Of a stretch of 64,000 bases of DNA, positions 8,426 to 61,186 are shown piece by piece; the stretch's first letter is position 1, and each line of letters begins with the position of its first letter. The position numbers were made by a program, and so were the translations under genes. The DNA comes from Streptomyces flaveolus (GTDB lineage: Bacteria > Actinomycetota > Actinomycetes > Streptomycetales > Streptomycetaceae): the NCBI RefSeq assembly GCF_000716535.1, contig NZ_JNWV01000022.1, forward strand, positions 62,001 to 126,000. Reading direction: 5' to 3'. The notes beneath the pieces are model-generated. The model was given only the letters and a program-made list of their open reading frames with translations, did no database searches and had not been told where the DNA came from.

Positions 8426-8456
8426 GGTCCGCACCGGGTGCGGGAATCCCGAGGCC

Positions 8457-9494: not shown

Positions 9495-9601
9495 CGACGG
9501 CCGCCCGCTTGTCCTGTTCTCCTGCGCCGGCCGGGTGAACGGTCACCGGAACGGACCAGCAGGGCGGGCGGGGCGCGGGCGGGCCACGGTACAGGAGAGT
9601 C

Positions 9602-10411: not shown

Positions 10412-10418
10412 CCGCCGG

Positions 10419-11660
10419 CTACAGCGGCTCGGGCAGGCGCGAGGCCTCCGTGTGCACGCCGTCGAGCAGTGCGGCGTAGGCCGCGATCATGCGCGTACGG
10501 CTGAAGCGTTCGCGGCTCGCCGCCAGCGCCGGGGCCAGCCCGGCGCGGTCGGCGACCGCCGCCGACCAGGCCAGGGCGATGGCCTCGGGGTCCTGCGGGG
10601 TCACGAACCCGTGGCCCCGGACGATCTCCGCGCTGTCGCCCACGTCCGTCGTCACCGGGACCGCGCCGCACATCATGCCCTCGATCAGGCACAGCGGCGC
10701 CGCCTCCCCGGAGACGGAGGTGAGGGCCACGACGTCGGCGGCGGCGTACACGGTCTCCATGTCACGGCGTACGCCGAGCAGGCGCACCCGCTCCGCGAGG
10801 TGCCGGTCCGCGCCGAACGCGACCTCGATGTCCGCCCACAGTGCCGGGTTGGTGCCGGTCATGCCCGCGCCGCACATCAGGACGTGCCCCTCGGGCTCGC
10901 GGGCGAGCCAGGCGCGGGCGGCGCGCAGGAAGAGCGGGACGTTCTTCATCGCGGCGTAGCGGGCCGCGAAGACGGTCACCGGTGCCGGGGCCGGGATGCC
11001 GAGGGAGGCACGGAACGCCACCCGGGCGGCCGGGTCCGGGCGGAAGCGGAGCAGGTCCACCCCGTTGGGGATGACGTGCAGCAGCTCGCGCGGGACGCCG
11101 GCCGCCGCGTAGGCCTCCCGCGTGGACTCGGCGCAGCACACGCAGGCCACCACGGTGCCGTCGGCGATGGCGGCCTTCAGCTCGGCCAGGGCCGGTCCCT
11201 GGTTCTCCGGGTCGGAGCGGTGCAGGCCGACCACCACCGGGCGGCGGGGCAGCCCGGCCTGGTTGAGCAGCGCCAGCGGCTGCTCCTTCAGCGACAGGAT
11301 GACGTCCGCCGCCGCCATGGACCGGGCGGTTTCGGCCAGCTCGGGCCCGCTGAAAACGTTCGCCGCGACCGTGCCGTCCACCAGCCCCGCCGTACGGCCG
11401 AGCGAGGTGACGCCGACGCCGCCGGCGGTCAGCGCCCGGTAGCAGGCGTCGTCCTCCATGCGCTGCCGGGTGGCCTCGCGGTGGACCTCGCCATGGATGC
11501 TGAGTACCTGGTGGAACTGGCCTCCCTCGGCCAGTCCCAGAACGACGTCGGAGTGCACGATCCGGGCCCCTCCGGAGAAGAAACCCTCGTAGACCGACAA
11601 CACACGCAGTCCGTGCCTCGCGCGCACACGACCACCCGCCTTGCACAAAAATCGAGCCAT
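10419..11660 (-). CDS. Glycosyltransferase family 4 protein
   Basis: 413 aa with two Rossmann-type halves. The N-terminal acceptor domain starts at LRVLSVYEGFFSGGARIVHS. The C-terminal GT4 domain has HVIPNGVDLLRFRP, then VTVFAARYAAMKNVPLFLRA, and the nucleotide-sugar-binding segment SGEAAPLCLIEGMMCGAVPV, which carries the conserved Glu of the E-x7-E region. It is cytoplasmic and probably transfers a sugar from an NDP-sugar; donor and acceptor are unknown. There is no other glycan gene nearby. It lies downstream of the serine hydrolase gene on the same strand after an 84-nt gap that contains an inverted GTTAGCC/GGCTAAC pair. Confidence 0.85.
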   Translation of the reverse strand: MARFLCKAGGRVRARHGLRVLSVYEGFFSGGARIVHSDVVLGLAEGGQFHQVLSIHGEVHREATRQRMEDDACYRALTAGGVGVTSLGRTAGLVDGTVAANVFSGPELAETARSMAAADVILSLKEQPLALLNQAGLPRRPVVVGLHRSDPENQGPALAELKAAIADGTVVACVCCAESTREAYAAAGVPRELLHVIPNGVDLLRFRPDPAARVAFRASLGIPAPAPVTVFAARYAAMKNVPLFLRAARAWLAREPEGHVLMCGAGMTGTNPALWADIEVAFGADRHLAERVRLLGVRRDMETVYAAADVVALTSVSGEAAPLCLIEGMMCGAVPVTTDVGDSAEIVRGHGFVTPQDPEAIALAWSAAVADRAGLAPALAASRERFSRTRMIAAYAALLDGVHTEASRLPEPL

Positions 11661-11744
11661 CCCCGTGAACAGCGGGTTAGCCGATATGAGGCGGTACGGA
11701 CATTGCGCGCGAGTTAACGCGGAACTACGCGAACGAAACGTTGG

Positions 11745-12869
11745 CTAACAGAATTCCTTCTCCAGCACGTCGCCCGTGTTCCCGGCCCAGTCCCCGTTGA
11801 AGCCGACCGCCACGGAGTGCCGGCCGTCCGCCGTGGACGCCGCCTCGGACACCGAGCCGTGGATCCCGCCGTCGTGACCCCAGACGTGGACGCCGCAGGT
11901 CAGCCGGGTGTCCATGAGACCGAGGCCGTAGCGGACGAGGGGCGAGGCGTCGGTGTCCACGGTGGTCTTCATCTCCTTGAGCTGCCGGGCCGGGAGCAGC
12001 TCGCCGCCGAGCAGGGCTCCGTAGAAGCGGGACAGGTCGGCGGAGTCGGAGATCATCTCTCCGGCGGAGGAGGCCATGGACGGGTTGAGGGTCGTGACGT
12101 CGTACGCCGGGCCGCCGGGGACCTTGAACGTCGAGTACGCCCTGCTGCTCGGCCGCGGCAGGGTGACCCGCGTCCCGGGCACGGAGGTCGCCCGCAGGTG
12201 CAGCGGGGCGATGATCCGGCGGTTGATCTCGGTGGCGTACGACCGGCCCGTCACCTTCTCGATCACCATCCCGGCGAGCACGTAGTTGATGTTGGAGTAC
12301 CGCCAGGAGGTGCCCGGCGCGAAGTCCGGCGCGTGCCGCATCGAGAGGTCCACCAGGTCCTGCGGGGTGAGGGTGTCGTAGCGGTGCCGGAAGAATCCGT
12401 CCTTGGTGAAGTAGGCGCCGGCGAAGCCGGGGTCGGCGAGGTAGTCGTGGATGCCGCTGGTGTGGTTCAGCAGCTGCCGGACGCTGATCCGGCGGCCGTC
12501 GTGGCCGTGGCCGCGGACCACGCCCGGCAGCCACCGGTCCACCGAGTCGTCGAGCGAGAGCCGGCCCTCCGCCTCCAGTTGGAGCAGGACGGTGGCGACG
12601 AAGGTCTTGGTGATGCTGGCGACGCGGAAGCGGTCGGCGGGCGAGCGCGGCGCACCCGTGCGGGTGTCGCCCACCCCGGCGGTGGCGGACCAGACGCCGT
12701 GGCGGTCCCGCGCGGTGACGGTCGCGCCGGGGACACCGGCAGCGACCGCCGCCTCGACGGCTTCGCGGGTGCGCTCGTGGGGTGCGGGGCCGGCCGCGAC
12801 GGCCGGTCCCGCCAGGGCCGCCGAGAGGAGCAGGGCGGTGCTGCCCACCAGAGCTGTGCGTGCGCGCAT
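11745..12869 (-). CDS. Secreted class C beta-lactamase-like serine hydrolase (DD-carboxypeptidase/esterase type)
   Basis: 374 aa with a Sec signal peptide (residues 1-26, LLLSAALAGPAVAA). The three serine-transferase motifs are intact: Ser85-x-x-Lys88 in RVASITKTF, Tyr191-Ser-Asn193 in SWRYSNINY, and His332-Asp-Gly334 in WGHDGGIHG. The length and motifs match the R61 D,D-carboxypeptidase/esterase group, so substrates may be peptidoglycan stem peptides, D-amino-acid peptides or esters. The ATG follows GGGGAAG. It acts extracytoplasmically. Whether it also hydrolyses beta-lactams cannot be judged. Confidence 0.88.
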   Translation of the reverse strand: MRARTALVGSTALLLSAALAGPAVAAGPAPHERTREAVEAAVAAGVPGATVTARDRHGVWSATAGVGDTRTGAPRSPADRFRVASITKTFVATVLLQLEAEGRLSLDDSVDRWLPGVVRGHGHDGRRISVRQLLNHTSGIHDYLADPGFAGAYFTKDGFFRHRYDTLTPQDLVDLSMRHAPDFAPGTSWRYSNINYVLAGMVIEKVTGRSYATEINRRIIAPLHLRATSVPGTRVTLPRPSSRAYSTFKVPGGPAYDVTTLNPSMASSAGEMISDSADLSRFYGALLGGELLPARQLKEMKTTVDTDASPLVRYGLGLMDTRLTCGVHVWGHDGGIHGSVSEAASTADGRHSVAVGFNGDWAGNTGDVLEKEFC

Positions 12870-12964
12870 GTCTTCCCCAACCTGTGGTCTGTGGGTGCGG
12901 TCGGGGGAAGGGACTGGGGAGCGTTCTGCGAAGGTTGCCTCGGTGTAGGCCGGTTGAGTGACTT

Positions 12965-14716
12965 TCAGCCCTTCCGCAGCACCAGTTCGGTGTTCCGGTC
13001 CGCCGCCTTGCCCGCGAACGTCTTGCTCGCGCCGGGGGCGTTGAAGGACAGCTCGCGGTACAGCGCGGCCAGGCCGGTCTGCGAAAGGTCGGTGAAGTCG
13101 GTGCGGTGGGGGGCCGCGGACTCGACGAGGGTGGTGAAGACGGAGAGCGTGCCGTCCTTGTTGTCGACCAGCTCGACGATGCGGGCGAGCTGGGGGTGGT
13201 CGATGTGCGAGGCGGTGGAGATCTCCCAGAAGGAGCGGCCGCCGGAGGCCGCGTGCGGGGTGATGATGTTCTTGTGGACGTGGCCGTTCACCCAGGCGAG
13301 CACATTGCGGTGCCGGGCGAGGAGGGCCACCAGTTCCTCGCCGGTGTGCCGGCGCTCGCCGGGGCGGGCCGGGTCGGGGCGGGTGTTGGTCATGGTCTTG
13401 CTGGTGTGGTGGCTGAAGACGACGGCGCAGGAGTCCTTGTTGTCCTTCAGGGTCCTGTCCAGCCAGTCGAGCTGCGCGGTGCCGAGGGAGCCCTCGAAGT
13501 GGCCGCCGGCGTCGTTGGTGTCGAGGCTGATCCCGATGACGTCGTCGGAGACGCGGAAGGAGTAGTACCGGGTGCCGGCGTCGAGGTTCGCGGAGGAGTA
13601 GCCGTGCCCGACCGGACCGACGCCCTGGTGGGCGGGGTCGAGGTGGGCCTTGAGGTAGTCGGCGGGCGTGTACGGTGCCCGCTTCTCGTCGGGGGTGACG
13701 GAGCGCATGGCGCGCGCGTGCGCCTTGAGGAAGTCGCGGTAGCCGACGCCCTGCGGGTCCCGGGCGTTCTTGTTGGTGTCCCGGAACTTCTTCGCCTCGG
13801 CGGCGGAGACGGTCATCAGCTTCCTGCCGCCGATGGCGGCCTCGGCGAGGTAGGGGTCGCCGTGGGAGCCGTAGACACCGAGCTGGAGCATGTCGTGGTT
13901 GCCGACGGTGGAGTACCAGGGCAGCCTGAGGCCGGGGCTGCGGACCTCGCGGATCGCGGCGGCCAGGAAGCCCTCCAGGTGCGGGAAGCCGAGTGCCTTG
14001 TCGTTGTCGCGCAGGGCGGCGTCGGACTGCCAGTACAGCTTCAGGCCGCTGTTCTGCACGCCCTCGTAGCGCGCCGGGTCACCGGAGTTCGGGGTGATGC
14101 GGCCACCGCTCATCACCTTCATGTACCACTCCAGCTCGGACAGCGCGTTGTTGTCGGTGTTGTCGCCGGTGGTCATGACGAAGCGGAGCGGGGCGCCGGT
14201 GACGGGTCCGCCGCGCAGCGCGTTGACCCGTTCGACGAAGGCGATGGCGCCCTGCACGGTCAGCGCTTCCTGCGGGCGCCAGGCGTGCGGGTCGGCGGCG
14301 CGCACGAACTCGGCCCGCAGGGGGTGCTGTACGTCCGTCAGGTGCATGTCAGTGAACTGCACGAACGCGGCGAGGGTCTTGCGGCGGTCCGCGCGGCCGG
14401 CCTTGGGCGTGGCCAGCTCGTCGCGCACGACCCGCTTCCATCCGGGACCGTCACCGAGGCGGCGGTAGCCGGAGCTGTTCCGTGGGGCGGCGACGGAGGC
14501 GAGCGTCGTGCCCTTGGTGTAGGGGGCGAGCGGGGCGGACGGGAGGGTCCGCCCGCTGTGGGCGACGGGCTCCCCGGCCGCGGTGGCGGCCTGGCTGTCG
14601 ATGGGGCGCAGGGCGTAGCCGACGCCCGCGGAGAGCGAGACCGCTCCGGCGACGGCGAGGACGGTACGGCGGTTGACCCCCGGAGCGGAGGTGGCGACAG
14701 AGCGTGTGCGCGACAT
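12965..14716 (-). CDS. Tat-exported metallophosphoesterase (calcineurin-like)
   Basis: 583 aa from the ATG at 14716, which follows GGGGAGATC; the longer frame to 14848 has no ribosome-binding site. The N-terminus carries a twin-arginine-type signal, VNRRTVLAVAGAVSLSAG, so export is in folded form. All metal motifs of the calcineurin fold are visible in order: QFTDMHLTD, TTGDNTDN, VGNHDMLQ, VVFSHHTSK and NGHVHKN. The protein matches the large Streptomyces metallophosphoesterase family with a long insert between GDN and GNHD. Likely activity is phosphomonoester or diester hydrolysis at the cell surface. The substrate is unknown; the neighbours do not help. Confidence 0.85.
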   Translation of the reverse strand: MSRTRSVATSAPGVNRRTVLAVAGAVSLSAGVGYALRPIDSQAATAAGEPVAHSGRTLPSAPLAPYTKGTTLASVAAPRNSSGYRRLGDGPGWKRVVRDELATPKAGRADRRKTLAAFVQFTDMHLTDVQHPLRAEFVRAADPHAWRPQEALTVQGAIAFVERVNALRGGPVTGAPLRFVMTTGDNTDNNALSELEWYMKVMSGGRITPNSGDPARYEGVQNSGLKLYWQSDAALRDNDKALGFPHLEGFLAAAIREVRSPGLRLPWYSTVGNHDMLQLGVYGSHGDPYLAEAAIGGRKLMTVSAAEAKKFRDTNKNARDPQGVGYRDFLKAHARAMRSVTPDEKRAPYTPADYLKAHLDPAHQGVGPVGHGYSSANLDAGTRYYSFRVSDDVIGISLDTNDAGGHFEGSLGTAQLDWLDRTLKDNKDSCAVVFSHHTSKTMTNTRPDPARPGERRHTGEELVALLARHRNVLAWVNGHVHKNIITPHAASGGRSFWEISTASHIDHPQLARIVELVDNKDGTLSVFTTLVESAAPHRTDFTDLSQTGLAALYRELSFNAPGASKTFAGKAADRNTELVLRKG

Positions 14717-49172: not shown

Positions 49173-50630
49173 GTGACACACCCGCCGAAGAGCAGCGCGG
49201 CGCCACCGCCGGCCGGGCCCGCCGGTGTGGCCGGTGTGGCCGGCATCCCCGGCATCCCCGCTCAGCCCGGGCCGCCCGGACCCCCCGCGGCCGTCGGTCC
49301 TGGGGTGCCGCCCGCGCGCCGGACCGCCTTCGCCGAGGGTGCCGAGCGGTTGCGGGCCGCCGCGACGACCGAGCCGGGGCGGTTGCGGATCATCGGTGCC
49401 GTCCTGGCGCTGCTGGTCGTCGGGTTCGGAACGGTCACCGCCTGGCAGACCAGCGACCGCGCGGCCGCCGCCGACGACGTGCTGCACCACAGCCAGCCGC
49501 TCAGTTCCGGCGCGGCCGGCATCTACCGGTCGCTCGCCGACGCCAACACCGCTGCCTCCAGCGGGTTCCTGGCGGGCGGACAGGAGAACGCGCGGTCCAG
49601 GGACCGGTACGAGAAGGACATCCGCACCGCCGCCGACGGGCTCGTCAACGCCGCCGCCAACGCCGAGCCGGGCTCCGCGTCCGAGGAGACCATCACCGAG
49701 CTGAACCGGCTGCTGCCCGAGTACAAGGGCCTCATCGAGCGGGCCCGGACGTACAACCGGCAGGGCTATCCGGTCGGCGGCGCCTACCTGCGGTACGCCA
49801 ACGAGAAGATGCAGAAGGAGATGCTCCCGGCGGCGGAGGATCTCTACACCACGGAGAACCGGCGGCTCGACGCCGACTACGCGGACGCGACGCCGTACCC
49901 GTGGATCGCCATCGGGCTCGGGCTGCTCGCGCTCGCCGCGCTCGGCTGGGCCCAGCACCGCATGTACCGGCGCACCCACCGCGTCCTCAACCACGGCCTG
50001 GTCGCCGCCAGCGCCGCGACGACCGTCGCCCTGCTGTGGCTGGTCGTGGGTCACGCCGTCGCCCGGTCGGGGCTCGACGGCTCCTACCAGCACGGCATCC
50101 GCTCGCTCAACGTCCTGCACGACGCCCGGATCGCCTCCCTGAAGGCGCGCGGCAACGAGAACCTGAGCCTGGTGGCGCGCGGCGCGGAGACCGTCACGGT
50201 CGACGGCACGACGTACGACGCCTACTACCGCGACTTCGACAAGGACATCGCCGTGCTCGGCAAGGGGCTGACCGAGGCGGCGCGGCTCGCCGACGACCAG
50301 GGGGGCACCGCACCGGTCGAGGCGGCCGAGGGCAACATGACGGTGTGGAAGCAGCGCCACTCCGCGGCCCGCGCCGAGGACGAGAACGGCAACTACCAGC
50401 AGGCGCTGGACAAGGTGATCGGCGCCAAGGGCGCGACCGCCGAGTGCTTCGACGGCGTCGACCGCAGTCTCGCCCGGGCCATCGACCATGAGCAGGCCCA
50501 GTTCCAGAAGGCGGCCGCGGACGGGCGGGACGCGATGACCGGGCTGCCGGAGGGCGCCGCCGTCCTGGCGGTGCTGGGCGCGGCCGGCGCCGTGGCCGGC
50601 ATCGGCCGCAGACTTTCGGAGTACCGGTGA
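49173..50630 (+). CDS. GlnX-like membrane sensor protein
   Basis: 485 aa from a GTG after GGGGGAG. A cytoplasmic, collagen-like N-terminus (GIPGIPAQPGPPGPP) precedes TM1 (RIIGAVLALLVVGFGTVTAW). An extracytoplasmic helical domain of about 150 aa (DDVLHHSQPLSSGAAGIYRS, EETITELNRLLPEYKGLIER) resembles the four-helix ligand domains of sensors. TM2 and TM3 follow, then a second extracytoplasmic region and a last span near the C-terminus. Gene order matches mycobacterial glnX-glnH-pknG, where the membrane protein passes amino-acid signals to PknG. A sensing role is inferred from that precedent. Confidence 0.75.
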   Translation: MTHPPKSSAAPPPAGPAGVAGVAGIPGIPAQPGPPGPPAAVGPGVPPARRTAFAEGAERLRAAATTEPGRLRIIGAVLALLVVGFGTVTAWQTSDRAAAADDVLHHSQPLSSGAAGIYRSLADANTAASSGFLAGGQENARSRDRYEKDIRTAADGLVNAAANAEPGSASEETITELNRLLPEYKGLIERARTYNRQGYPVGGAYLRYANEKMQKEMLPAAEDLYTTENRRLDADYADATPYPWIAIGLGLLALAALGWAQHRMYRRTHRVLNHGLVAASAATTVALLWLVVGHAVARSGLDGSYQHGIRSLNVLHDARIASLKARGNENLSLVARGAETVTVDGTTYDAYYRDFDKDIAVLGKGLTEAARLADDQGGTAPVEAAEGNMTVWKQRHSAARAEDENGNYQQALDKVIGAKGATAECFDGVDRSLARAIDHEQAQFQKAAADGRDAMTGLPEGAAVLAVLGAAGAVAGIGRRLSEYR

Positions 50631-50644
50631 CAGGGGGCAAGGCG

Positions 50645-51676
50645 ATGGACCTGAGCCGTGCGCGGTCCGCCCTGCGGGGCTGGGGCGGGGTCGCCGCGAT
50701 GGCGGTGCTGTGCGCGCTGGCGCTGGCGTTCGTCCTGCTGCTGCCGTGCACCCAGCGGACGCCGGACGACCCGCAGCGGGCCGGGCAGAAGGTCGCCACC
50801 GGCACCCAGGCCCGCGCCGACGGGTGCGTGGACGCCGAGGCGCACGAGCAGACACTGGCACCGTCGGACGCGGACGGTCCGACGATCGACGCGATCAAGG
50901 CACGCACGGGCGCCAAGCGGAAGCTGATCGTCGGCGTCGACCAGAACAGCTACCGCTGGGGCTACCGCAACCCCAACACCGAGGGCGCCCGGCTGGAGGG
51001 CTTCGACATCGACCTCGTCCACCGGATCGCCGAGGACATCCTCGGGGACCCGGATGCGGTGCAGTTCAAGGCCATACCGACCAACCAGCGCATCCCGGCG
51101 GTCGAGGACGGACGCGTCGACATGGTCGTGCGCACCATGACGATCACCTGTGACCGGCTGAAGCAGGTCGCGTTCTCCGCGCCCTACTTCAAGACCGGCC
51201 AGCAGGTCCTCGCCCCCAAGTCCTCACGGATCACGGGCTACGACGACTCGCTGGCCCACAAGAAGGTGTGCACGGCGGCCGGTTCGACCGCCCACGCCAA
51301 GCTGGCCGCCGACAAGAAGGACGGCCGGCTGCCCGCCACCACCGACATCTCCACCACCGTGCCGAACCAGCTCGACTGCCTGGTCCGGCTGCAACTCGGC
51401 GAAGTGGACGCGGTGGTGACCGACGGCGCGCTCGCCGCCAGCCAGGCCGCGCAGGACCCGACCGTCGCACTGAAGGGCGAGCCGTTCACGACCGAGTACT
51501 ACGGCGTGGCGATGAAGAAGGACGCCGACGATCTGGTACGCCGGGTCAACCGCGTTCTGGTGGACTACCGCGCACACGGCTGGCAGACGTCGTACGACGA
51601 CTGGCTGTCGGCGACACTGGGCAAGGACTCGGCCGCGTCGAAGCCGCCCGCGCCGCAGTACCGGCGCAGCAGTTGA
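50645..51676 (+). CDS. glnH: GlnH-like extracytoplasmic amino-acid-binding protein
   Basis: 343 aa from ATG 50645, seven bases after AGGGGG; GTG 50627, which overlaps the previous stop, is an alternative. The membrane anchor AAMAVLCALALAFVLLLPC may be a lipoprotein signal or a transmembrane helix. The rest is a periplasmic-binding-protein type 2 fold: KLIVGVDQNSYRWGYRNP, LEGFDIDLVHRIAEDILG, DGRVDMVVRTMTITCDRLKQ and VAFSAPYFKTGQQVL. In mycobacteria GlnH binds aspartate/glutamate-type ligands and signals through GlnX to PknG. No transport permease is nearby, supporting a sensory role. Confidence 0.85.
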   Translation: MDLSRARSALRGWGGVAAMAVLCALALAFVLLLPCTQRTPDDPQRAGQKVATGTQARADGCVDAEAHEQTLAPSDADGPTIDAIKARTGAKRKLIVGVDQNSYRWGYRNPNTEGARLEGFDIDLVHRIAEDILGDPDAVQFKAIPTNQRIPAVEDGRVDMVVRTMTITCDRLKQVAFSAPYFKTGQQVLAPKSSRITGYDDSLAHKKVCTAAGSTAHAKLAADKKDGRLPATTDISTTVPNQLDCLVRLQLGEVDAVVTDGALAASQAAQDPTVALKGEPFTTEYYGVAMKKDADDLVRRVNRVLVDYRAHGWQTSYDDWLSATLGKDSAASKPPAPQYRRSS

Positions 51677-51717
51677 GCCGTACCCGACCGGAACAGACAG
51701 CAAGCGAGAGGTGATCG

Positions 51718-52998
51718 ATGGGCGTCACGGACCCCGCCGGGCCGGTGATGGACCGGGACGAGGTGGACCGTGCGCTGGCGCGGCTCGGCCAGGAGCACGA
51801 GGCGATCGAGACCTCGCTGCTGGCCCTGCAGGACCACGCGGGCCGCAGACTCCTCGAAGGCGCGGAGCTGACCGGTGCCACCAAGGAGCGCTGGCAGGCC
51901 ACGGAGGAGCGGATCACCCGGCTGTGGGCGTACTTCGACGCCTACACGGCCGCGCTGCGCGGCGCCCGCGAGATCCGCTCCCGGCGCCGCTGGTCCAGCC
52001 GGGAGGACCTCGCGGAGCTGACCGGGCTGCTGCGCGGCGAGTCCGTGACCGTCCCCGGCGGCGGGAACGGCAGGCTGAGCGAGACGTTCTCGCTGTCCGC
52101 GCTGGTGGACCGGATGAACGAGCTGTACGCGACGAGCCTGGACATGATCGTCGCCGCCGACGCGGTCTGGTCGGCGCTCCCCGCGCGGATCGATTTACTC
52201 GCCGCGGAACTCCAGCGCACCCGGCAGCTCGCGCACTCCGTCGGGGTGCGCCCCGGCGAGCACCCGGCCGGTGACGACCTGGAACGGATCACGCGCACGC
52301 TGACCAGACTGCGCGAGGACGTCGTCTCCGACCCGCTCGCCTTCTGGGTGCCGGCCGAGGGCAGTTCGGCGCCCGGCGGCGGACGCCCGGACACGACGGT
52401 GTACGACCGTGAGGCGCGCGCCCTGGAGGACGTGCGCCGGGAGATCGACGCCGTGCTGACCGTCCGCCAGGACGCGGAGGCGCGGCTGATCCGCCTGCGG
52501 GACGTGCTCTCGCGCGCGGACCGCACCCTGGCGGAGGCGCGTACCGCGCGCGGCGAGGTGCTGGCGAAGATCGCCGCGACCGAGGTGCCGGTGGTGAGCG
52601 GTCCGCCGACCGCGCTCCAGGAGCAGCTGGCGACCGCGGCCGAGTACCGCCGCCAGGCCCAGTGGCACCGGCTCTCCCCGCTGCTGGAGGCGCTGGAGGA
52701 GAAGGCGGAGGACGAACTGCTGCGCGCCCGCGAGTCGTTGACCGCGGTGACCGCGCCGCTCGCGGTCCGTGCCGAGCTGCGCGGCCGGCTCGACGCGTAC
52801 AAGGCGAAGGTCGCCCGGCACGGCCTCGCGGAGGACCCGCTGCTGGTCGAGCGGTACGACGCGGCCCGCCGCATGCTGTGGAGCGCGCCCTGCGACCTGC
52901 GCGTGGCGGAACAGGCCGTGCTGCGCTACCAGCAGGCGGCGGCGGAACTGCTCGGCAGCGCGAGCGCGCCGCGGGACCGTGAGGGGGACGAGTCATGA
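51718..52998 (+). CDS. Coiled-coil protein of the PknG cluster, with a TTA codon
   Basis: 426 aa from an ATG after GAGAGG. No signal peptide or membrane segment. It is mostly alpha-helical with long heptad-like stretches: RALARLGQEHEAIETSLLAL, ARALEDVRREIDAVLTVRQD, EDELLRARESLTAV. Codon 160 is TTA (52195-52197) in ARIDLLAAEL, the rare leucine codon read only by the bldA tRNA, so translation should depend on developmental stage. The stop overlaps the pknG start (ATGA). No family is recognised; a scaffold or adaptor for PknG is an inference from position. Confidence 0.75.
   Translation: MGVTDPAGPVMDRDEVDRALARLGQEHEAIETSLLALQDHAGRRLLEGAELTGATKERWQATEERITRLWAYFDAYTAALRGAREIRSRRRWSSREDLAELTGLLRGESVTVPGGGNGRLSETFSLSALVDRMNELYATSLDMIVAADAVWSALPARIDLLAAELQRTRQLAHSVGVRPGEHPAGDDLERITRTLTRLREDVVSDPLAFWVPAEGSSAPGGGRPDTTVYDREARALEDVRREIDAVLTVRQDAEARLIRLRDVLSRADRTLAEARTARGEVLAKIAATEVPVVSGPPTALQEQLATAAEYRRQAQWHRLSPLLEALEEKAEDELLRARESLTAVTAPLAVRAELRGRLDAYKAKVARHGLAEDPLLVERYDAARRMLWSAPCDLRVAEQAVLRYQQAAAELLGSASAPRDREGDES
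52195..52197 (+). promoter_or_regulatory. TTA codon (bldA-dependent translation)
   Basis: In-frame TTA at codon 160 of the coiled-coil gene. TTA is very rare in Streptomyces genes and needs the bldA-encoded tRNA. It is the only in-frame TTA I noticed in the window. Confidence 0.85.
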
Positions 52999-55460
52999 GT
53001 CAGCCGGTGCAGGCCTGCCAGCGGCCGGGCTGCGAGGGGACGTACGAGGACGTCGGCGGCGGCGAGCTGTACTGCGACACGTGCGGTCTCGCGCCGGTCG
53101 TCTCGGCGAGAGGCATGGTGGGCTCGCCGCCCACCGGGGTCGCCCGGGGGGCGGCCGACAGCGGCAGTTCCCGCAGCTCGCGCAGCTCGCGTACGTCCTC
53201 GCAGTCGTCGAGGTCGCGCCGCTCGGTGTCCGGGCGGCTGTCCCGGTCGCTGTCGGGGAAGCCCACGGGCCGCTCGGTGTCGGTGCGCAGCTCCGGCTCG
53301 TCGTCCGGGGCCTCCTCGCGGGGGCGGCTCGGCGCCGGGCTGGTCTCGGTGCCGCAGGTGCCGCGGCCCGACCCGCGCGCGATGGTGCTGGAGAACCCGG
53401 AGGTGCCGGAGCGGAAGCGGTTCTGCTCGCGGTCGGACTGCGGGGCGCCGGTCGGCCGGGCCCGGGGCGACCGGCCGGGCCGCACGGAAGGTTTCTGCAC
53501 CAAGTGCGGGCACCCGTACTCCTTCGTGCCCAAGCTGAGGGCCGGGGACATCGTGCACGGCCAGTACGAGGTGGCGGGCTGCCTGGCGCACGGCGGGCTC
53601 GGCTGGATCTACCTGGCCGTGGACCGGGCCGTCTCCGACCGGTGGGTGGTGCTCAAGGGCCTGCTGGACACCGGCGACCAGGACGCGATGGCCGCGGCGA
53701 TCTCCGAGCGGCGGTTCCTCGCGGAGATCGAGCACGCCAACATCGTGCGGATCTACAACTTCGTGGAGCACCTGGACCAGCGCACCGGCTCCCTCGACGG
53801 CTACATCGTCATGGAGTACGTCGGCGGCAAGTCCCTGAAGGAGATCGCCAACGCCCGCCGGACGCCCGACGGCCGCCGCGACCCGCTGCCGGTGGAGCAG
53901 GCGTGCGCGTACGGCATCGAGGCGCTGGAGGCGCTCGGCCATCTGCACAGCCGGAACCTGCTGTACTGCGACTTCAAGGTCGACAACGCCATCCAGACCG
54001 AGGACCAGCTCAAGCTGATCGACATGGGCGCGGTCCGCCGGATGGACGACGTCGAGTCGGCGATCTACGGCACGGTGGGCTACCAGGCGCCGGAGGTCGC
54101 CGAGTCCGGCCCGTCCGTGGCCAGCGACCTCTACACGGTGGCCCGCACGCTCGCCGTGCTGGCCTTCGACTTCCAGGGCTACACCAACGTCTACGTCGAC
54201 TCCCTGCCCGACCCCGACACCATCGAGGTCTTCCGCCGTTACGAGTCCTTCTACCGGCTCCTGGTGCGCGCCACCGACCCCGACCCGGGCCGCCGGTTCG
54301 CCTCCGCGCAGGAGATGGCCGAGCAGCTGACGGGTGTGCTGCGCGAGGTCGTCTCGCTCCAGACCGGGCGGGCACGGCCCGCGCTGTCGACGCTGTTCGG
54401 GCCCGAGACGAAGGTCACGGACACGGAGTTGTTCCCCCGGCTGCACGGCGACGTGTCCCGGCTGGGCGCCCGGCCGCTGCGGAAGGCTCACGCCACCGCA
54501 CCGCCGCCCCCGCCGGCCCTGGTCAGGCCCGTCGACACGCCGGCCGCCGCGCTCGCCCTGCCCGTCCCGCTCGTCGATCCGAACGACCCCAACGCAGGTT
54601 TCCTGGCGGGCCTGCTGGCCTCGGCGCCGGCCGAGCTGATGAGCGTGCTGGCGGCGGCGCCCACGCAGACCGAGGAGACCCGGCTCCGGCAGATCCGCGC
54701 CCGGCTGGAGAGCGGTGACCACCAGGGCTCGCTGATGAGTCTGGCCAAGCTGGACGAGGAACGGCCCGACGACTGGCGGGTGGTGTGGTACCGGGGCGTG
54801 GCCGCGCTGGTCACCGGCGACTTCGAGCACGCCGCGCTCGCCTTCGACGCGATCTACGACGCCTTTCCCGGCGAGGCCGCGCCCAAGCTGGCGCTCGGCC
54901 TGTGCGCGGAGGTGCTGGGCCAGCTGGACAACGCGGGCGAGTACTACCGCCTGGTGTGGACGACCGACCCGAGTTTCGTGAGCGCCGCGTTCGGGCTGGC
55001 CCGGGTGCAGCTCGCGGCCGGGGACCGGCGGGGCGCGGTGACGACGCTGGAGTCGGTGCCGGAGGCCTCCATCCACTACACGGCCGCCCGGGTCGCCGCC
55101 GTCCGGGCCCGGCTGAGACAGCGCACGGCGAGCGCGGGTGACGTACCGTTCCTGGACGACCTGACGGCCGCCGCCGGTCAGGTCGAGGCACTCCAGGCGT
55201 ACGGCCTGGACCCGGCGCGGCGCGAGCTGTTGTCGGCGGAGGTGCTCGGCTGTGCGCTGGACTGGATACTCTCCGGGGGCCAGGGCACCGGGCCCGCCGC
55301 CGGAGGCCGGGTGCTGCTGGGCAGCGGTCTGGACGAGCGGGGCCTCCGCTTCGGCCTGGAGCGCGCCTACCGCACGCTGGCCCGGCTGGCGCCCGGCGGC
55401 GAGGAGAGGATCGAGCTGGTGGAACGGGCCAACCGTTACCGCCCCCGGACGTGGGTGTAG
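52995..55460 (+). CDS. pknG: PknG-type serine/threonine protein kinase with zinc ribbons and TPR domain
   Basis: 821 aa, soluble; start ATG overlaps the previous stop. Order of parts: zinc ribbon 1 (Cys8, Cys13, Cys27, Cys30), a Ser/Arg-rich linker, a rubredoxin-like ribbon 2 (Cys144, Cys149, Cys168, Cys171), and a kinase domain with glycine loop AHGGLGWIYLA, Lys221 in VVLKGL, catalytic Asp326 in YCDFKVDN and metal-binding Asp343 in LIDMGAV. A TPR region follows (MSLAKLDEERPDDWRVVWYR, APKLALGLCAEVLGQLDNAG). This architecture matches mycobacterial PknG, which controls 2-oxoglutarate metabolism by phosphorylating the FHA protein GarA. The extra N-terminal ribbon is unlike the mycobacterial form. 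Confidence 0.93.
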   Translation: MSQPVQACQRPGCEGTYEDVGGGELYCDTCGLAPVVSARGMVGSPPTGVARGAADSGSSRSSRSSRTSSQSSRSRRSVSGRLSRSLSGKPTGRSVSVRSSGSSSGASSRGRLGAGLVSVPQVPRPDPRAMVLENPEVPERKRFCSRSDCGAPVGRARGDRPGRTEGFCTKCGHPYSFVPKLRAGDIVHGQYEVAGCLAHGGLGWIYLAVDRAVSDRWVVLKGLLDTGDQDAMAAAISERRFLAEIEHANIVRIYNFVEHLDQRTGSLDGYIVMEYVGGKSLKEIANARRTPDGRRDPLPVEQACAYGIEALEALGHLHSRNLLYCDFKVDNAIQTEDQLKLIDMGAVRRMDDVESAIYGTVGYQAPEVAESGPSVASDLYTVARTLAVLAFDFQGYTNVYVDSLPDPDTIEVFRRYESFYRLLVRATDPDPGRRFASAQEMAEQLTGVLREVVSLQTGRARPALSTLFGPETKVTDTELFPRLHGDVSRLGARPLRKAHATAPPPPPALVRPVDTPAAALALPVPLVDPNDPNAGFLAGLLASAPAELMSVLAAAPTQTEETRLRQIRARLESGDHQGSLMSLAKLDEERPDDWRVVWYRGVAALVTGDFEHAALAFDAIYDAFPGEAAPKLALGLCAEVLGQLDNAGEYYRLVWTTDPSFVSAAFGLARVQLAAGDRRGAVTTLESVPEASIHYTAARVAAVRARLRQRTASAGDVPFLDDLTAAAGQVEALQAYGLDPARRELLSAEVLGCALDWILSGGQGTGPAAGGRVLLGSGLDERGLRFGLERAYRTLARLAPGGEERIELVERANRYRPRTWV

Positions 55461-55463
55461 TCG

Positions 55464-56945
55464 ATGTCGCAGATGCCCCAGCAGGCCGCACTGGCGAAGT
55501 GCCCGAGCTGCGCGGAGCCGGTGGAGCCGGGTGACCTGTTCTGCGGAGCGTGCGGATACGACCTTTCGTCGGTGCCCGCGCCGCCGCAGGACCACCCGAC
55601 GCTCACCATGACGGGCCCCGCCGGGCCCGGGGACGGCACGGCGTGGCCCACCCCCGAACCACCCGGCCCCACGGCCTCACCGGCACCCCACCTGCCGACG
55701 GACCTGCCGGGCACCGACTCGGGCGGCACACCGCTGTCCGGTGAGGGACCCGACCCCGCCTCCGCGGCCGCACCTCCGCCGGGACAGGAGTTCGGGCCCG
55801 CCACGGGCGGCGTGCCGTCGGCGGCGGGTGAGGGCGGCTCCGGCCCGGGCGGCACGCCGCCGCCCCCGCACGGGAACGGCCCCGTCCCCGGTGGTGCGCA
55901 GCAGGGCGGGCAGGAGGCCGACGCTGAGCACTCCTCCGGCTCCGGGGTGCGGTTCGACCGGCCGGACGAGCCCGACGAGTACCCGTTGCAGGCGCCGGAC
56001 CCGCGGCTGGCCTCCGCACCGGCCGATCCGGCGCAGCTCTGCGTGGCCTGCCGGGCGGGCCGGGTGGACAGCGACGGCTACTGCGAGAACTGCGGGCACG
56101 CCCAGCCGCGCGAACGCGACCACGTGGAGCGGGAGTCGGGGCCGGTCGCCGCCGTCAGCGACCGCGGCCTGCGCCACCACCGCAACGAGGACGCCTTCGC
56201 CGTCGGCCACACCACGCTGCCCGACGGCACGCCGGCCGCGCTGGCGATCGTCTGCGACGGCGTGTCGTCCGCGACCCGCCCCGACGACGCCTCCCTGGCC
56301 GCCTCCCAGGCGGCCGGCGACACGCTGCTGACCGCGCTGCCGCGCGGCACCCACCCGCAGGCGGCGATGCACGAGGCGATCGTCGCCGCCGCGCAGGCCG
56401 TCAACGCGCTGGCCGAGGAGCCCGCCACCGCGCGCGAGCACGCCCCGCACCAGAACGCGCCGGCCTGCACGATCGTCGGCGCGGTGGTCACCCCGGGGCT
56501 GCTGGTCGTCGGCTGGGTCGGCGACAGCCGCGTCTACTGGGTGCCCACCGACCGCACGGCCCCGCCCGCCCGGCTGACCGAGGACGACTCCTGGGCCGCC
56601 CAGATGGTCGCCGCCGGCCTGATGAGCGAGGCCGAGGCGTACGCCGACGCGCGTGCCCACGCCATCACCGGCTGGCTCGGCGCGGACGCCTACGAACTCG
56701 AGCCGCACACCGCGTCGTTCAAGCCGGACCGGCCCGGCGCCGTGGTGGTGTGCACCGACGGACTGTGGAACTACGCCGAGACGGCCGAGGAGATGTCCGA
56801 GGTCGTCCCGCCGGACGCGGCGGACCGCCCGCTGCACAGCGCGCGGGTGCTGGTCGGTCACGCCCTGGACGGCGGGGGCCACGACAACGTAACAGTGGCG
56901 GTCCTGCCGTTCCCGGTGCCGTCGCAGGGGGCAGGATCGGCCTGA
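55464..56945 (+). CDS. PP2C-family serine/threonine phosphatase with zinc ribbons
   Basis: 493 aa, starting 3 nt after pknG. Zinc ribbon 1: Cys13, Cys16, Cys27, Cys30. A Pro/Gly-rich linker of about 130 aa leads to ribbon 2 (Cys193, Cys196, Cys207, Cys210). The PP2C domain then runs to the end, with metal motifs SDRGLRHHRNEDAFAVG, IVCDGVSSATRPDDASLA, VVGWVGDSRVYWV, VVVCTDGLWNYAE and GGGHDNVTVAVL. It is soluble and probably reverses phosphorylation by PknG. The paired ribbons resemble those of the kinase and the FHA protein. Confidence 0.92.
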   Translation: MSQMPQQAALAKCPSCAEPVEPGDLFCGACGYDLSSVPAPPQDHPTLTMTGPAGPGDGTAWPTPEPPGPTASPAPHLPTDLPGTDSGGTPLSGEGPDPASAAAPPPGQEFGPATGGVPSAAGEGGSGPGGTPPPPHGNGPVPGGAQQGGQEADAEHSSGSGVRFDRPDEPDEYPLQAPDPRLASAPADPAQLCVACRAGRVDSDGYCENCGHAQPRERDHVERESGPVAAVSDRGLRHHRNEDAFAVGHTTLPDGTPAALAIVCDGVSSATRPDDASLAASQAAGDTLLTALPRGTHPQAAMHEAIVAAAQAVNALAEEPATAREHAPHQNAPACTIVGAVVTPGLLVVGWVGDSRVYWVPTDRTAPPARLTEDDSWAAQMVAAGLMSEAEAYADARAHAITGWLGADAYELEPHTASFKPDRPGAVVVCTDGLWNYAETAEEMSEVVPPDAADRPLHSARVLVGHALDGGGHDNVTVAVLPFPVPSQGAGSA

Positions 56946-57060
56946 GGGCCGTATCCGACGGGGGAACGGCACGGGGAAGCCGCGGCGGACCGGAGGGGAC
57001 CGGTCCGCTCACAGTCGTCGCCTCGCGTCGGCGAGGTGTCCGAGGGGGATGTGAGCGAGC

Positions 57061-58404
57061 ATGGCCAATTTCGCGAAGTCGAACGTGCCACGGTTCTCGG
57101 TGGACGTCTACCAGAACGAGTACCTGCCCGAGGGCGGCAGCGAGGTCAACGCCATCGTCACGGTGACCGCGACCGGCGGCGGCACCGTAGGCGGCGCGGT
57201 CACCGCGCCGGTCCACGCGCCGGGCGGGCGGCCGTCCGCCGCCGTGGCGATCATGGTCGACTGCTCGGGTTCCATGGACTACCCGCCGACCAAGATGCGC
57301 AATGCCAGGGACGCCACGGCCGCCGCGATCGACACCCTGCGCGACGGCACCCGCTTCGCGGTGATCGGCGGCACGCACGTGGCCAAGGAGGTCTATCCGG
57401 GCGGCGGGCGGCTCGCGGTCGCCGACGCCACCACCCGCGAGCAGGCCAAGCAGGCACTGCGCCGGCTGAGCGCGGGCGGCGGTACGGCCATCGGCACCTG
57501 GCTGCGGCTCGCCGACCGGCTGCTGTCCGCGGCGGACGTGACCATCCGGCACGGCATCCTGCTCACCGACGGCCGCAACGAACACGAGTCGGCGGAGGAC
57601 CTGCGGGCCACGCTGGACGCCTGCGCCGGCCGGTTCACCTGTGACGCGCGGGGCGTGGGCACCGACTGGGAAGTGAAAGAAGTCACAGGGATCGCCTCGG
57701 CGCTGCTCGGCACCGCCGACATCGTCGCCGACCCGGCCGGACTGGCCGCCGACTTCACGCGGATGATGGAGACGACGATGGGCAAGGAGGTCGCCGACGT
57801 CTCCCTGCGGGTGTGGACGCCGGTCGGCACGACCATCCGGTTCGTGAAGCAAGTCGCCCCCGCCGTCGAGGACTTGACCGGTCGTCGTACCGAGGCCGGG
57901 CCGCGCGCCGGGGACTACCCGACCGGGTCCTGGGGCGACGAGTCCCGCGACTACCACCTGTGCGTGACGGTCCCGCCGGCCGGGCTCGGCCAGGAGATGC
58001 TCGCCGCGCGGGTCTCCCTGGTGATCCCGCAACCGGACGGAACCGCCCAAAGTCTCGGCGCGCAGGGCCTCGTACGGGCGGTCTGGACCGACGACATGAC
58101 CGCCTCCACCGCGCTCAACCCCCAAGTCGCCCACTACACCGGGCAGGCCGAACTGGCGCAAGCCATCCAGAAGGGCCTCGACCTTCGCAAAGCGGGAGAT
58201 TTCGATGGAGCAACCGCCAAACTGGGGCGCGCGGTTCAGCTCGCGAACGCCTCGGGGAACGCGGATACTGCGAAACTGCTTGCGAAGGTGGTGGACGTGG
58301 TCGACGCCGTGACAGGTACTGTGCGGTTGAAGACGAGGGTCGCGGAGGCGGACGAGATGACTCTGGAGACCCGGTCCACCAAGACTGTTCGTGTGAAGAA
58401 GTGA
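57061..58404 (+). CDS. VWA-domain protein of the PknG cluster
   Basis: 447 aa, soluble. The von Willebrand A domain begins near residue 60; the MIDAS metal site is Asp67-x-Ser69-x-Ser71 in MVDCSGSMDYP, with the distal Thr in GGGTAIGTW and Asp in LLTDGRNEHE. Before it is a short beta segment (RFSVDVYQNEYLPEGGSEVN). After it comes a beta-rich domain and a helical C-terminus (AIQKGLDLRKAGDFDGATAK). VWA proteins mediate metal-dependent protein contacts; here it may bridge the kinase, phosphatase and FHA protein. It is separated from the phosphatase gene by 115 nt and from the FHA gene by 34 nt. Confidence 0.88.
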   Translation: MANFAKSNVPRFSVDVYQNEYLPEGGSEVNAIVTVTATGGGTVGGAVTAPVHAPGGRPSAAVAIMVDCSGSMDYPPTKMRNARDATAAAIDTLRDGTRFAVIGGTHVAKEVYPGGGRLAVADATTREQAKQALRRLSAGGGTAIGTWLRLADRLLSAADVTIRHGILLTDGRNEHESAEDLRATLDACAGRFTCDARGVGTDWEVKEVTGIASALLGTADIVADPAGLAADFTRMMETTMGKEVADVSLRVWTPVGTTIRFVKQVAPAVEDLTGRRTEAGPRAGDYPTGSWGDESRDYHLCVTVPPAGLGQEMLAARVSLVIPQPDGTAQSLGAQGLVRAVWTDDMTASTALNPQVAHYTGQAELAQAIQKGLDLRKAGDFDGATAKLGRAVQLANASGNADTAKLLAKVVDVVDAVTGTVRLKTRVAEADEMTLETRSTKTVRVKK

Positions 58405-58438
58405 CCCTCGGAAGCGTAGGAGAAGGGGAAGCACCGAC

Positions 58439-60202
58439 ATGCCGACCTGCCCGAACGGACACCAGTCGGGTTCCGACGACTGGTGCGAGGTCTGCGGTCA
58501 CCGCATGGCCGGTGCCGTACCTCCGCCCCCTCCGCCGCCCCCGGGCGGTTACGGTTTCCCGCCCCCGCAGGGCGGCCCGGCCGGCGCCCGCCCGCAGCAG
58601 GGCGCCGGGTCCGACCCGGAGCCGGAGCTGTGCCCGCAGTGCCGTACGCCCCGCGAGGGCGGCGCGCCCTTCTGCGAGGAGTGCCGGTGGAACTTCCTGA
58701 CCAACACGGCGACCTCCTACACCCCGGCCGCCCCGCGCCCGTCGCAGCCTCGGTTCCAGCCGCCGAGCTCGACGTACGGCGGGGGTGACGGGTACGAGTA
58801 CCAGGGCTCGCGGCCCTCTCAGGTGAACCGGCCCGCCGAGCCGATCCCGTCCTTCCACAGCGAGCCGTCGGGCCCGACGCCGTTCGGCGGCGACCGCGGC
58901 CCGTCCGGTCCGCCGACCTCCCCCGGCCCCTCGGGCCCGCCCGCCTTCGGCGGCGGCAGCCAGCGCCCGTCAGGGCCGCCGCAGGGCTTCGGCCAGGGGC
59001 CGGGTCAGGGTGGTCAGGGCCAGGGCGGTCCGGGGCAGGGCCCGGGGGCCGGCGGCCCGTCCGGTCCCGGTGGTTTCGGTGGCCGGGGCACGGTGCCGGG
59101 CCAGGGCTCGGGTGGCCCGGGTTCCGGCGGCCCGTCCGGCTTCGGTGGCGGTCCCGGGCAGGGACCGGGTTCCGGTGGTCCGGGTTCCGGTGGTCCGGGT
59201 TCCGGTGGTCCGTCGGGATTCGGCGGCGGTCCGGGGCAGGGGCCGGGTGCCGACGGCCCGTCCGGGTCGTCCGGGTTCGGCCGCGGTCCGGGGCAGGGTC
59301 CCGGTGGCCCCGGCGGCCCGTCCGGCTTCGGCGGCGGCCAGGGTCCCGGTGGCCCCGGCGGCCCGGGATCCGGTGGCCCGTCCGGTTTCGGTGGCGGTCC
59401 GGGGCAGGGTCAGGGTCCGGGTCCGGGTTCCCAGGGCTCCTCCCCCTTCGGGCGCGAGCGCTCCCGTCCGGGTGGTCCCACTCCGCCCGGCCCCTCCGGC
59501 TTCGGCGGTGACCCCTCGCGTCAGGTGCCGCCGCCCGGCGGTCCCGGCGGTGCCCCGCAGGCGTTCCAGCAGTCCGGTGCGTCGGCTCCGCCCGCGTTCC
59601 CGGGCCAGACCCGCCGGCCCCCGGCCGCCGACGACGACTGGGTGATCTCCCCGCCGGCGTCCACCGGCCCCGGCGGTCAGGGCGGCGCCTACGGCTACCC
59701 GCAGTCCGGGGGCACCCAGACCCCGCCGGGACCGGGCGGACCGGGCGGCTTCCCCCAGGCGCCGCAGGCACCGCACGCGCCGCAGGCCCCCCAGCCGACC
59801 ACCTGGACCGCGACCATCGGCCCGGACCGCGAGTACTTCATGGCGATGATGCAGCGCTCCGGACCCGAGGCCGCGGGTCTGAACCTGCCCGCGTACTCGC
59901 CCGAGCAGCAGCGCACGCTGACCGGGAACCAGGTCACCATCGGCCGCCGCCGGCACTCCACCGGCGACACCCCCGACATCGACCTGTCGGTGCCGCCGGA
60001 GGACCCGGGTGTCTCGCACCAGCACGCGGTGCTGGTGCAGCAGCCGGACGGCAGCTGGGCGGTCGTCGACCAGAACTCGACGAACGGCACCACGGTCAAC
60101 ATGTCGGAGGAGCCCATCCAGCCGTTCGTACCGGTCCCGCTCCAGGACGGCGACCGGGTGCACGTGGGCGCCTGGACGACGATCACCGTCCGCCGGGGCT
60201 GA
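58439..60202 (+). CDS. FHA-domain protein with zinc ribbons and Gly/Pro-rich linker
   Basis: 587 aa from an ATG after GAAGGGGA. Ribbon 1 is CPNGH (Cys4/His8) with Cys16/Cys19; ribbon 2 is Cys65/Cys68 and Cys79/Cys82. Residues about 177-345 are a low-complexity linker with five PSGFGG units. The C-terminal FHA domain (about 495-587) has VTIGRRRHS, GVSHQHAVLV and DQNSTNGTTVN, the residues that bind phosphothreonine peptides. It is a likely partner or substrate of the PknG encoded upstream, in the role GarA/OdhI plays elsewhere, though its architecture differs. It ends 6 nt before a convergent gene. Confidence 0.9.
   Translation: MPTCPNGHQSGSDDWCEVCGHRMAGAVPPPPPPPPGGYGFPPPQGGPAGARPQQGAGSDPEPELCPQCRTPREGGAPFCEECRWNFLTNTATSYTPAAPRPSQPRFQPPSSTYGGGDGYEYQGSRPSQVNRPAEPIPSFHSEPSGPTPFGGDRGPSGPPTSPGPSGPPAFGGGSQRPSGPPQGFGQGPGQGGQGQGGPGQGPGAGGPSGPGGFGGRGTVPGQGSGGPGSGGPSGFGGGPGQGPGSGGPGSGGPGSGGPSGFGGGPGQGPGADGPSGSSGFGRGPGQGPGGPGGPSGFGGGQGPGGPGGPGSGGPSGFGGGPGQGQGPGPGSQGSSPFGRERSRPGGPTPPGPSGFGGDPSRQVPPPGGPGGAPQAFQQSGASAPPAFPGQTRRPPAADDDWVISPPASTGPGGQGGAYGYPQSGGTQTPPGPGGPGGFPQAPQAPHAPQAPQPTTWTATIGPDREYFMAMMQRSGPEAAGLNLPAYSPEQQRTLTGNQVTIGRRRHSTGDTPDIDLSVPPEDPGVSHQHAVLVQQPDGSWAVVDQNSTNGTTVNMSEEPIQPFVPVPLQDGDRVHVGAWTTITVRRG
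58980..59530 (+). repeat. Tandem GC-rich repeats encoding the Gly/Pro linker
   Basis: Imperfect DNA repeats of about 40-60 nt encode units like GGPSGFGGGPGQGPG inside the FHA gene. The copies vary at third positions, so they are coding repeats rather than a CRISPR or other element. Repeat number could vary between strains. Confidence 0.8.
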
Positions 60203-60208
60203 CCGCGC

Positions 60209-61186
60209 TCAGGGCAGGGGCCAGGCGTACGGCCCCCGCGGGTCGTCCAGCCACGCCCAGGCGTGCTCGCCGGCGACCGTGACGCCGTACCGCCCGCGCC
60301 CCGGCTCGCCCTCGCGCTCCCACAGGGCGTACGCCTCCTGCGGGTCGAGCGTGCCGTGGGTCAGCGCGAGCAGGAAGCGGAACTGCTCCTGCTCGCGGGC
60401 CCGGCGAGGCAGCCCGGCCGACGAGACGAACTCGGGACGCGCCCTGGGCCCGCCGCGCAGCGGCACGAAGAAGGCGGCCCCGGGCAGGAACGGGCCCTCG
60501 GCGTGTTCCGCGTCCCGGACGGTGAGCGTGAGCAGACCGGTGGCGAGCGGGGTGAGGACGCGCGCGCCGGGTCGGCACTGGGCGAGCCAGGCGCGCGGCA
60601 CCGTGGGCAGCTCGCAGGTGGCGATGATCCGGTCGAAGGGGGCGCGTTCGGGCACTCCGCGCGCGCCGTCGCCGGTGACGACGACGGGGCGGTGGCCGGC
60701 CGCCGCCAGGTGCTGCCGGGCCGACTCGGTGATCTCCGGTTCCAGGTCGATGGTGGTGACGAGGTCGTCGGCGCCGAGCCGGTGGGCGAGCAGGGCCGCG
60801 TTGTAGCCGGTGCCGGCGCCCACCTCCAGGACCCGGTTGCCGTCCTCGACGCGCAGGGCGACCAGCATGCGGGCCATCAGGGAGGGCTGGCTGCTGGAGG
60901 AGAGCAGCTCGCCGTCGCGCAGCCGGGTGGCCAGCGGTACGTCCGCGTAGGCGCCGCGCACCCAGCGTTCCCGGGCCCGGCGGTCGGGGCTCTCGCGCCA
61001 GAGGCGCTCGTAGCCGCGCGCCCCGGTGACGTAGTAGTACGGCACGAACAGGTGCCGGGGCACCGACGCGAACGCCTCCCGCCACACCGGGTCGTCCGTC
61101 CAGGCCCCGTCGGCGTCGATCTCCCGCACCAGCTCGGCCCGCGCCGCGTCGGCGAGAGCCTCGATCTCGGTGTCGTAGGCGCCCAT
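60209..61186 (-). CDS. Protein-L-isoaspartate O-methyltransferase-like protein
   Basis: 325 aa, longer than the classic PCMT of about 210 aa because of a C-terminal extension. The N-terminal part has VPRHLFVPYYYVTGARGYER. SAM motif I is VLEVGAGTGYNAALLAHRLG, followed by LVTTIDLEPEITESARQHL and the PFDRIIATCELPTVP segment that usually faces the isoaspartyl substrate. The C-terminal region ends with AYALWEREGEPGRGRYGVTV and may modify specificity. It would repair aged proteins or methylate another substrate in the cytoplasm. It converges tightly on the FHA gene and is divergent from the globin gene. Confidence 0.85.
   Translation of the reverse strand: MGAYDTEIEALADAARAELVREIDADGAWTDDPVWREAFASVPRHLFVPYYYVTGARGYERLWRESPDRRARERWVRGAYADVPLATRLRDGELLSSSSQPSLMARMLVALRVEDGNRVLEVGAGTGYNAALLAHRLGADDLVTTIDLEPEITESARQHLAAAGHRPVVVTGDGARGVPERAPFDRIIATCELPTVPRAWLAQCRPGARVLTPLATGLLTLTVRDAEHAEGPFLPGAAFFVPLRGGPRARPEFVSSAGLPRRAREQEQFRFLLALTHGTLDPQEAYALWEREGEPGRGRYGVTVAGEHAWAWLDDPRGPYAWPLP

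Follow-up and report, generated by a model that had tools for sequence, protein, structure and literature searches.

The window analysed here is a whole stretch of 64,000 nucleotides (nt) from Streptomyces flaveolus, namely bases 62001-126000 of contig 22 of a 10.3-megabase genome. On its + strand, positions 49173-60202 hold seven open and co-directional genes which code, in this order, for a GlnX sensor, a GlnH-like binding protein, a coiled-coil protein, the kinase PknG, a PP2C phosphatase, a VWA protein and an FHA protein. An earlier note on this DNA had placed a seven-gene PknG run at these positions and had described the starts in its first half as overlapping or very close; both statements hold, the domains having been identified by profile scans and the junctions measured, in gene order, as a 4-nt overlap, a 41-nt gap, a 4-nt overlap and gaps of 3, 115 and 34 nt.

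The first gene (49173..50630, + strand, as all those that follow) codes for a GlnX-family membrane sensor of 485 amino acids with a Pro-rich N-terminus (NF058618, 497 bits for a cut-off of 250), and its GTG start at 49173 is preceded by the ribosome-binding-like stretch GGGGAGG. Next comes the GlnH-like amino-acid binding protein (50627..51676; PF00497, E-value 8e-27), whose nearest solved structure is the mycobacterial GlnH 6h1u (GlnH structures 6h1u/6h2t, E-value 7e-43); its N-terminus has a hydrophobic segment, in which no canonical lipobox was seen by eye. As for the coiled-coil protein (51718..52998), it gave no match in Pfam or NCBIfam scans. Its predicted model is all-helical (predicted local distance difference test score, pLDDT, 89.9; predicted template-modelling score, pTM, 0.70), and the alignment and the model point to a conserved C-terminal domain at about residues 296-412. 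This domain is also present in further families: in f60, f50 and f73, the coiled-coil position is held by a diverged protein carrying the same C-terminal domain.

PknG itself (52995..55460; 821 amino acids; PF16919, PF00069 and PF16918; 2pzi, E-value 1e-169) carries an extra Cys-rich ribbon and a Ser/Arg-rich linker at its N-terminus, before the rubredoxin domain (residues 108-181, 53316..53537, PF16919), the kinase domain and the TPR domain (residues 514-819, 54534..55451, PF16918, E-value 1.7e-88). Its catalytic residues are intact (VVLKG, CDFKVDN, IDMGAV), and the catalytic-loop pattern is found in 90/93 relatives, paralogues being included in this and the other motif counts over relatives. 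The extra ribbon pattern is present in all 31 kinases of family f1 vs. none of the five from f3, a family identified as mycobacterial from the 1399-bit match between the PknG of its member G084 and the solved mycobacterial PknG 2pzi. The PP2C phosphatase (55464..56945; PF13672, PF13248, PF13240) carries two ribbons of Cys4 type at its N-terminus, together with a Pro/Gly-rich linker. Among its relatives, GD[ST]R is conserved in 70/71, while the stricter NEDA and DN patterns are conserved in 49/71 and 42/71, respectively; a ribbon pattern lies upstream of the PP2C domain in 70 of the 71 loci having PP2C. That the locus includes a matching phosphatase is borne out by the presence of PP2C in 28/28 Streptomyces loci.

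The VWA protein (57061..58404) matches VWA_3 and VWA_3_C, and in its predicted model the vWA domain is inserted in a beta-sandwich followed by a C-terminal helical bundle, i.e. the tripartite architecture of the archaeal protein ArnB. The residues of the metal-ion-dependent adhesion site (D67, S69, S71, T142 and D170) are invariant in the family alignment, and the DxSxS pattern is found in 69/74 relatives. The VWA protein of Catenulispora acidiphila (caci_2163), available as PDB 4fx5, counts among the closest known systems; the text found on it does not deal with its genomic surroundings. The conserved tail E436-T-R-S-T-K-T442 (58366..58386) is a candidate phospho-acceptor region: residue 442 is a Thr in 69/69 loci with an FHA gene vs. 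4/7 without, a count that excludes the fragmentary VWAs of L103, L133, L167 and L304, VWA matches below 100 bits and the public loci described below. The last gene codes for the FHA protein (58439..60202; PF00498), made of two N-terminal ribbons, a long Gly/Pro/Gln-rich linker and a C-terminal FHA domain (residues 499-577, 59933..60169). Its double zinc-ribbon region (58448..58684; the first ribbon Cys/His, the second Cys4) is conserved across families, the ribbon pattern being found in 67 of the 71 loci having the FHA protein; the GR and SxxH motifs are kept in 71/71 and 68/71 relatives. Thirteen solved FHA sequences match the locus FHA at an E-value of 0.01 or better, and ArnA is not named among them.

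Conservation of the run was assessed on a public sample consisting of the best 80 of 577 confirmed VWA matches, that is, on close relatives only (78 loci titled Streptomyces and two titled 'Actinobacteria bacterium', of which 22 are clipped by contig ends). All seven genes are found in the same order in the 58 unclipped loci, one of which has GlnX in two pieces. Because all 58 hold the same set in the same order, the linkage is beyond chance, and the seven-gene observation is confirmed as real. A second sample was made of 80 PknG-positive genomes, family f3 and one fragmented Streptomyces (G393) being left out, which were searched with profiles for the coiled coil, VWA, PP2C, FHA and GlnX. Stretches of 20 kilobases (kb) around PknG were read in 78 of them (G271 and G352, where the stretch is split over contigs, were left out); nine clipped loci were set aside following our own list, while L167 was kept among the unclipped loci despite its position at a contig end. 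All seven genes are present in 52/69 unclipped loci, when the C-terminal domain is taken as the mark of the coiled coil, and in 27/28 Streptomyces loci. The 28th, L103 (G227:C25), is decaying: GlnX, GlnH, the PknG TPR and VWA are fragments and the kinase domain was undetected, with the coiled coil, PP2C and FHA still strong matches. The order is not fixed everywhere, since in f54 it reads coiled coil, PknG, PP2C, VWA, FHA, GlnX and GlnH, with the sensor pair at the opposite end.

Within the class, PknG_TPR was found in 111/295 genomes and the VWA subfamily in 72/295, all of them PknG-positive, vs. 0/184 PknG-negative genomes; the Fisher value for this co-occurrence is 1.7e-40, a figure that ignores kinship. 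Of the 90 VWA places, 79 are no more than 6 kb away from a PknG-TPR place, which is the opposite of the frequent unlinking from pknG that the earlier note had named as a refutation. Eight of the 11 distant places were read. Two of them (L172 and L294) hold the coiled coil, a kinase without the PknG TPR, PP2C, VWA and FHA, four (L171, L295, L296 and L304) hold PP2C, VWA and FHA with the kinase undetected, and two (L297 and L298) stand at contig starts. Concerning f3, 12 loci from nine of its 30 PknG-positive genomes were read; 11/12 are without coiled coil, PP2C, VWA and FHA, and ten of those 11 have GlnX and GlnH, in agreement with the contrast that the note draws with the mycobacterial glnX-glnH-pknG. 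The linkage of the seven genes is strongly supported and old.

The locus FHA protein was considered as the local GarA and rejected in that role, having no ETT string and scoring only 20.1 bits against the OdhI model NF041660 (cut-off 200). A separate Streptomyces GarA lies on contig 31, with the string ASETTSTIS and a zinc ribbon, and narrowly misses the OdhI cut-off, with 189 bits. The GarA-like query was matched in 33/33 genomes searched, six of which are genomes where no PknG was found, and GarA is on this ground taken as independent of PknG; in the sample, VWA is found only alongside PknG, whereas GarA-like proteins also occur without it. Since the classical target GarA is encoded outside the locus, the FHA protein of the locus would represent a further output. 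The earlier idea of a single complete circuit, reader and eraser included, is thus kept in part: the FHA and PP2C genes are linked to pknG, but the reader is not GarA, a separate GarA-like protein being present throughout.

Several features of these GarA-like proteins were also recorded. The statement that ETTS is present in GarA everywhere proved too strong, ETT being found in 11/30 fetched GarA-like loci (5/5 from f1); those without ETT have mostly DSTST, EQTST and similar variants, and the variant pattern is unmatched in 3/30. An N-terminal zinc ribbon is present in 24 of the 30 fetched loci (L256-L285) and in 0/3 from f3, a distribution that parallels that of the extra ribbon of PknG in f1 and f3. 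In f3, the PknG N-terminus (L043-L045) carries the stretch TQAxFRPxF, which resembles ETTSVFRADF of the f3 GarA (L284-L285); a stretch of this type is absent from the window PknG and from Streptomyces GarA.

The ArnA-ArnB pair of Sulfolobus acidocaldarius works with the kinase ArnC and the phosphatase PP2A (PMC6509490, PMC12852372). As far as the accessible parts of these papers go, the likeness to the present locus lies in adjoining VWA and zinc-ribbon FHA genes placed under a Ser/Thr kinase and a phosphatase, with nutrient control. The locus FHA protein shares with ArnA the N-terminal zinc ribbon, the linker, the C-terminal FHA domain and a gene adjoining VWA. The locus differs in having PP2C instead of PP2A, two ribbons instead of one, and a PknG kinase with GlnX-GlnH input. 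The VWA protein and ArnB share 14% identity, and the ArnAB-like reading draws its support from the fold and the neighbouring genes rather than from sequence; phosphorylation of the VWA threonines is a putative step of it. For the VWA protein, which the earlier note had left, like the coiled-coil protein, without an assigned role, ArnB offers a structural precedent.

From the gene identities, the deep linkage, the co-occurrence, the intact catalytic and phosphopeptide-binding motifs and the VWA fold, we infer the following circuit. An extracellular amino acid would be sensed by the GlnH-like protein and GlnX, and this would set the activity of PknG. Control of PknG by GlnH/GlnX is established in mycobacteria and corynebacteria, according to the accessible text of PMC6069109, PMC9769921 and PMC8546545. 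PknG would then have two outputs, the unlinked GarA, a target known from elsewhere, and the local VWA-FHA pair, which may act like ArnB-ArnA. The kinase would phosphorylate threonines in the tail or the C-terminal helical bundle of the VWA protein. The FHA protein may make loose contact through its zinc ribbons and would bind the phosphorylated VWA tail tightly through its FHA domain; PP2C would reverse the phosphorylation, with the coiled-coil protein as a putative scaffold. In mycobacteria, the three-gene operon would have arisen by reduction of the full actinobacterial pknG locus. This specific mechanism, which would give PknG a second, ArnAB-like output in many actinomycetes, has in our judgement about an even chance of being right. 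A bolder form, which we put forward only tentatively and consider somewhat doubtful, would have PknG drive such a switch in most of its actinomycete range, with VWA as direct substrate, the zinc-ribbon FHA protein locking onto the phosphorylated tail and PP2C releasing it; the GarA branch would then be half of the pathway, kept after loss of the module, and kinase-VWA circuits controlled by solute-binding proteins would form a wider, duplicated class reading different ligands.

Several observations weigh against the ArnAB-like reading. The VWA protein aligns significantly with ArnB only in the vWA region (E-value 1e-7) and not over its whole length, and the authors of PMC12852372 caution, in the part of the paper accessible to us, that ArnB-like architectures mostly are not multi-phosphorylation systems. 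Moreover, four f54 loci have FHA without VWA anywhere in the genome, and the f55 VWA tails are without T437, both of which speak against a strict one-substrate model. FHA being kept without VWA in f54 also favours an alternative in which the FHA protein reads the kinase, by binding an autophosphorylated Thr in the PknG N-terminal tail, and in which VWA and the coiled coil serve to scaffold a single kinase complex. The extra ribbon and long Ser/Arg-rich linker of the non-f3 PknG N-termini, the ribbons common to PknG, PP2C and FHA, and the published docking of OdhI to the N-terminus of PknG (PMC8546545, in its accessible part) point the same way. However, the linker of the window PknG is Ser-rich and not Thr-rich, whereas FHA domains prefer phosphothreonine (PMC6509490, in its accessible part), and the conservation of the VWA tail where FHA is present is left unexplained; we regard this alternative as rather unlikely.

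The 115-nt gap upstream of VWA, together with the f55 runs of PP2C, VWA and FHA without detected PknG (L171, L295, L296 and L304), could indicate two adjoining units, GlnX-GlnH-coiled coil-PknG-PP2C being the amino-acid circuit and VWA-FHA having another job and being merely co-inherited. This is improbable, given that in f55 the PP2C-VWA gap shrinks to an overlap of the matched regions, that VWA was found in none of the 184 PknG-negative genomes, and that a Streptomyces paralogue locus has VWA directly adjoining the kinase, without PP2C or FHA. A conflict-type module recruited to pknG, in which kinase, PP2C and vWA would control an effector, appears highly improbable. It is suggested by GAP1-N2 systems of actinobacteria, which are adjoined by genes for a zinc-ribbon kinase, a PP2C and a stand-alone vWA protein (PMC7159879, in its accessible part), and by a protein of the paralogue locus in which a trypsin-like domain is joined to the C-terminal domain of the coiled-coil protein. 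Against it, the locus is near-universal in the sampled Streptomyces and vertically kept, whereas defence islands are patchy. No known anti-phage system was recognised with PADLOC: 30 model families match PknG, as generic kinase where shown (25/30), PP2C has one marginal match and the other five proteins have none. Nor was a Pfam effector domain found in the locus genes and the four flanking open reading frames.

Variants of the locus bear on how its parts combine. The paralogue just mentioned is a second PknG-like gene of the same genome, on contig 20 (L037, G000:C20:229000-248000, circuit at about 5228-13419). Its VWA has 39% identity to the window VWA over the match, and next to it are a GlnX-like sensor and an SBP_bac_1 binding protein (46.3 bits, cut-off 26); FHA and PP2C were undetected there in the profile search. 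Other Streptomyces have a second kinase with VWA (L041, L042, L175 and L293) or a second kinase with VWA undetected (L289-L292). In L172 (G217:C239) and L294 (G162:C119), the PknG TPR, GlnX and GlnH were undetected, and the switch module can thus exist independently of that sensor. In three f55 loci (L155, L159 and L174), a single kinase-VWA-FHA run is flanked by sensor pairs on both sides, with GlnX-GlnH upstream and a further, reversed pair downstream. Finally, genome G350 of f3 holds one seven-gene locus (L286) and two three-gene pknG loci (L287 and L288). By gene, the nearest relatives of L286 are in f3 for GlnX and GlnH, in f54 for the coiled coil and PP2C, and in f1 for the kinase, VWA and FHA; as these affinities are mixed, transfer and retention of the full set are both possible and transfer is not claimed.

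With regard to known systems, the TerY-P triad consists of vWA, PP2C and kinase, the same three domain kinds as in the locus. SCO2110 was dropped as the Streptomyces coelicolor counterpart, as it is PkaF. The GlnX-GlnH-PknG-GarA/OdhI cascade of mycobacteria and Corynebacterium glutamicum (PMC6069109, PMC9769921, PMC8546545) shares, in the accessible text, a run of orthologous GlnX, GlnH and PknG genes with GarA encoded elsewhere; the Streptomyces run differs by four more genes and the extra N-terminal ribbon of PknG, and the seven-gene locus is not described in that text. PknG is unmentioned in both ArnAB papers (PMC6509490, PMC12852372). The GAP1-N2-linked genes resemble the locus in having a zinc-ribbon kinase, PP2C and a stand-alone vWA side by side in actinobacteria, but they belong to a GTPase-centric conflict system, and PknG and GlnX are unmentioned in the accessible part of the paper (PMC7159879). 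No description of the extended locus was found in the open-licence literature, subscription journals being mostly outside this scope, and the STRING view in Figure 2B of PMC6069109 may show the extra genes. The parts are of known kinds; their combination and the implied second output of PknG were not found described in that literature.

As for its surroundings, the locus is followed by a convergent PCMT gene (60209-61186, - strand). The promoter/terminator scan gave no sigma-70-like promoter and two terminator-like sites, both on the - strand, vs. 1.4 expected, and the folding of the PP2C-VWA gap is unremarkable (z = -1.41). The nearest proteins and loci are from Streptomyces: the VWA protein is 92% identical to that of S. 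cellostaticus and the coiled-coil protein 98% identical to a protein named from S. flaveolus.

PknG is among the best-studied bacterial Ser/Thr kinases, and nearly all of the work concerns lineages in which only three of the seven genes are kept. If PknG does have an ArnAB-like output, the sensor-kinase-GarA picture leaves out two elements found in antibiotic producers, namely an eraser and a second effector branch. The locus would then be a bacterial counterpart of the archaeal motility-control switch, built on a Sec23/24-like core, for which concrete residues are named here. The paralogue with another type of binding protein suggests, in addition, that the wiring of an extracellular solute to a Ser/Thr kinase may be re-usable.

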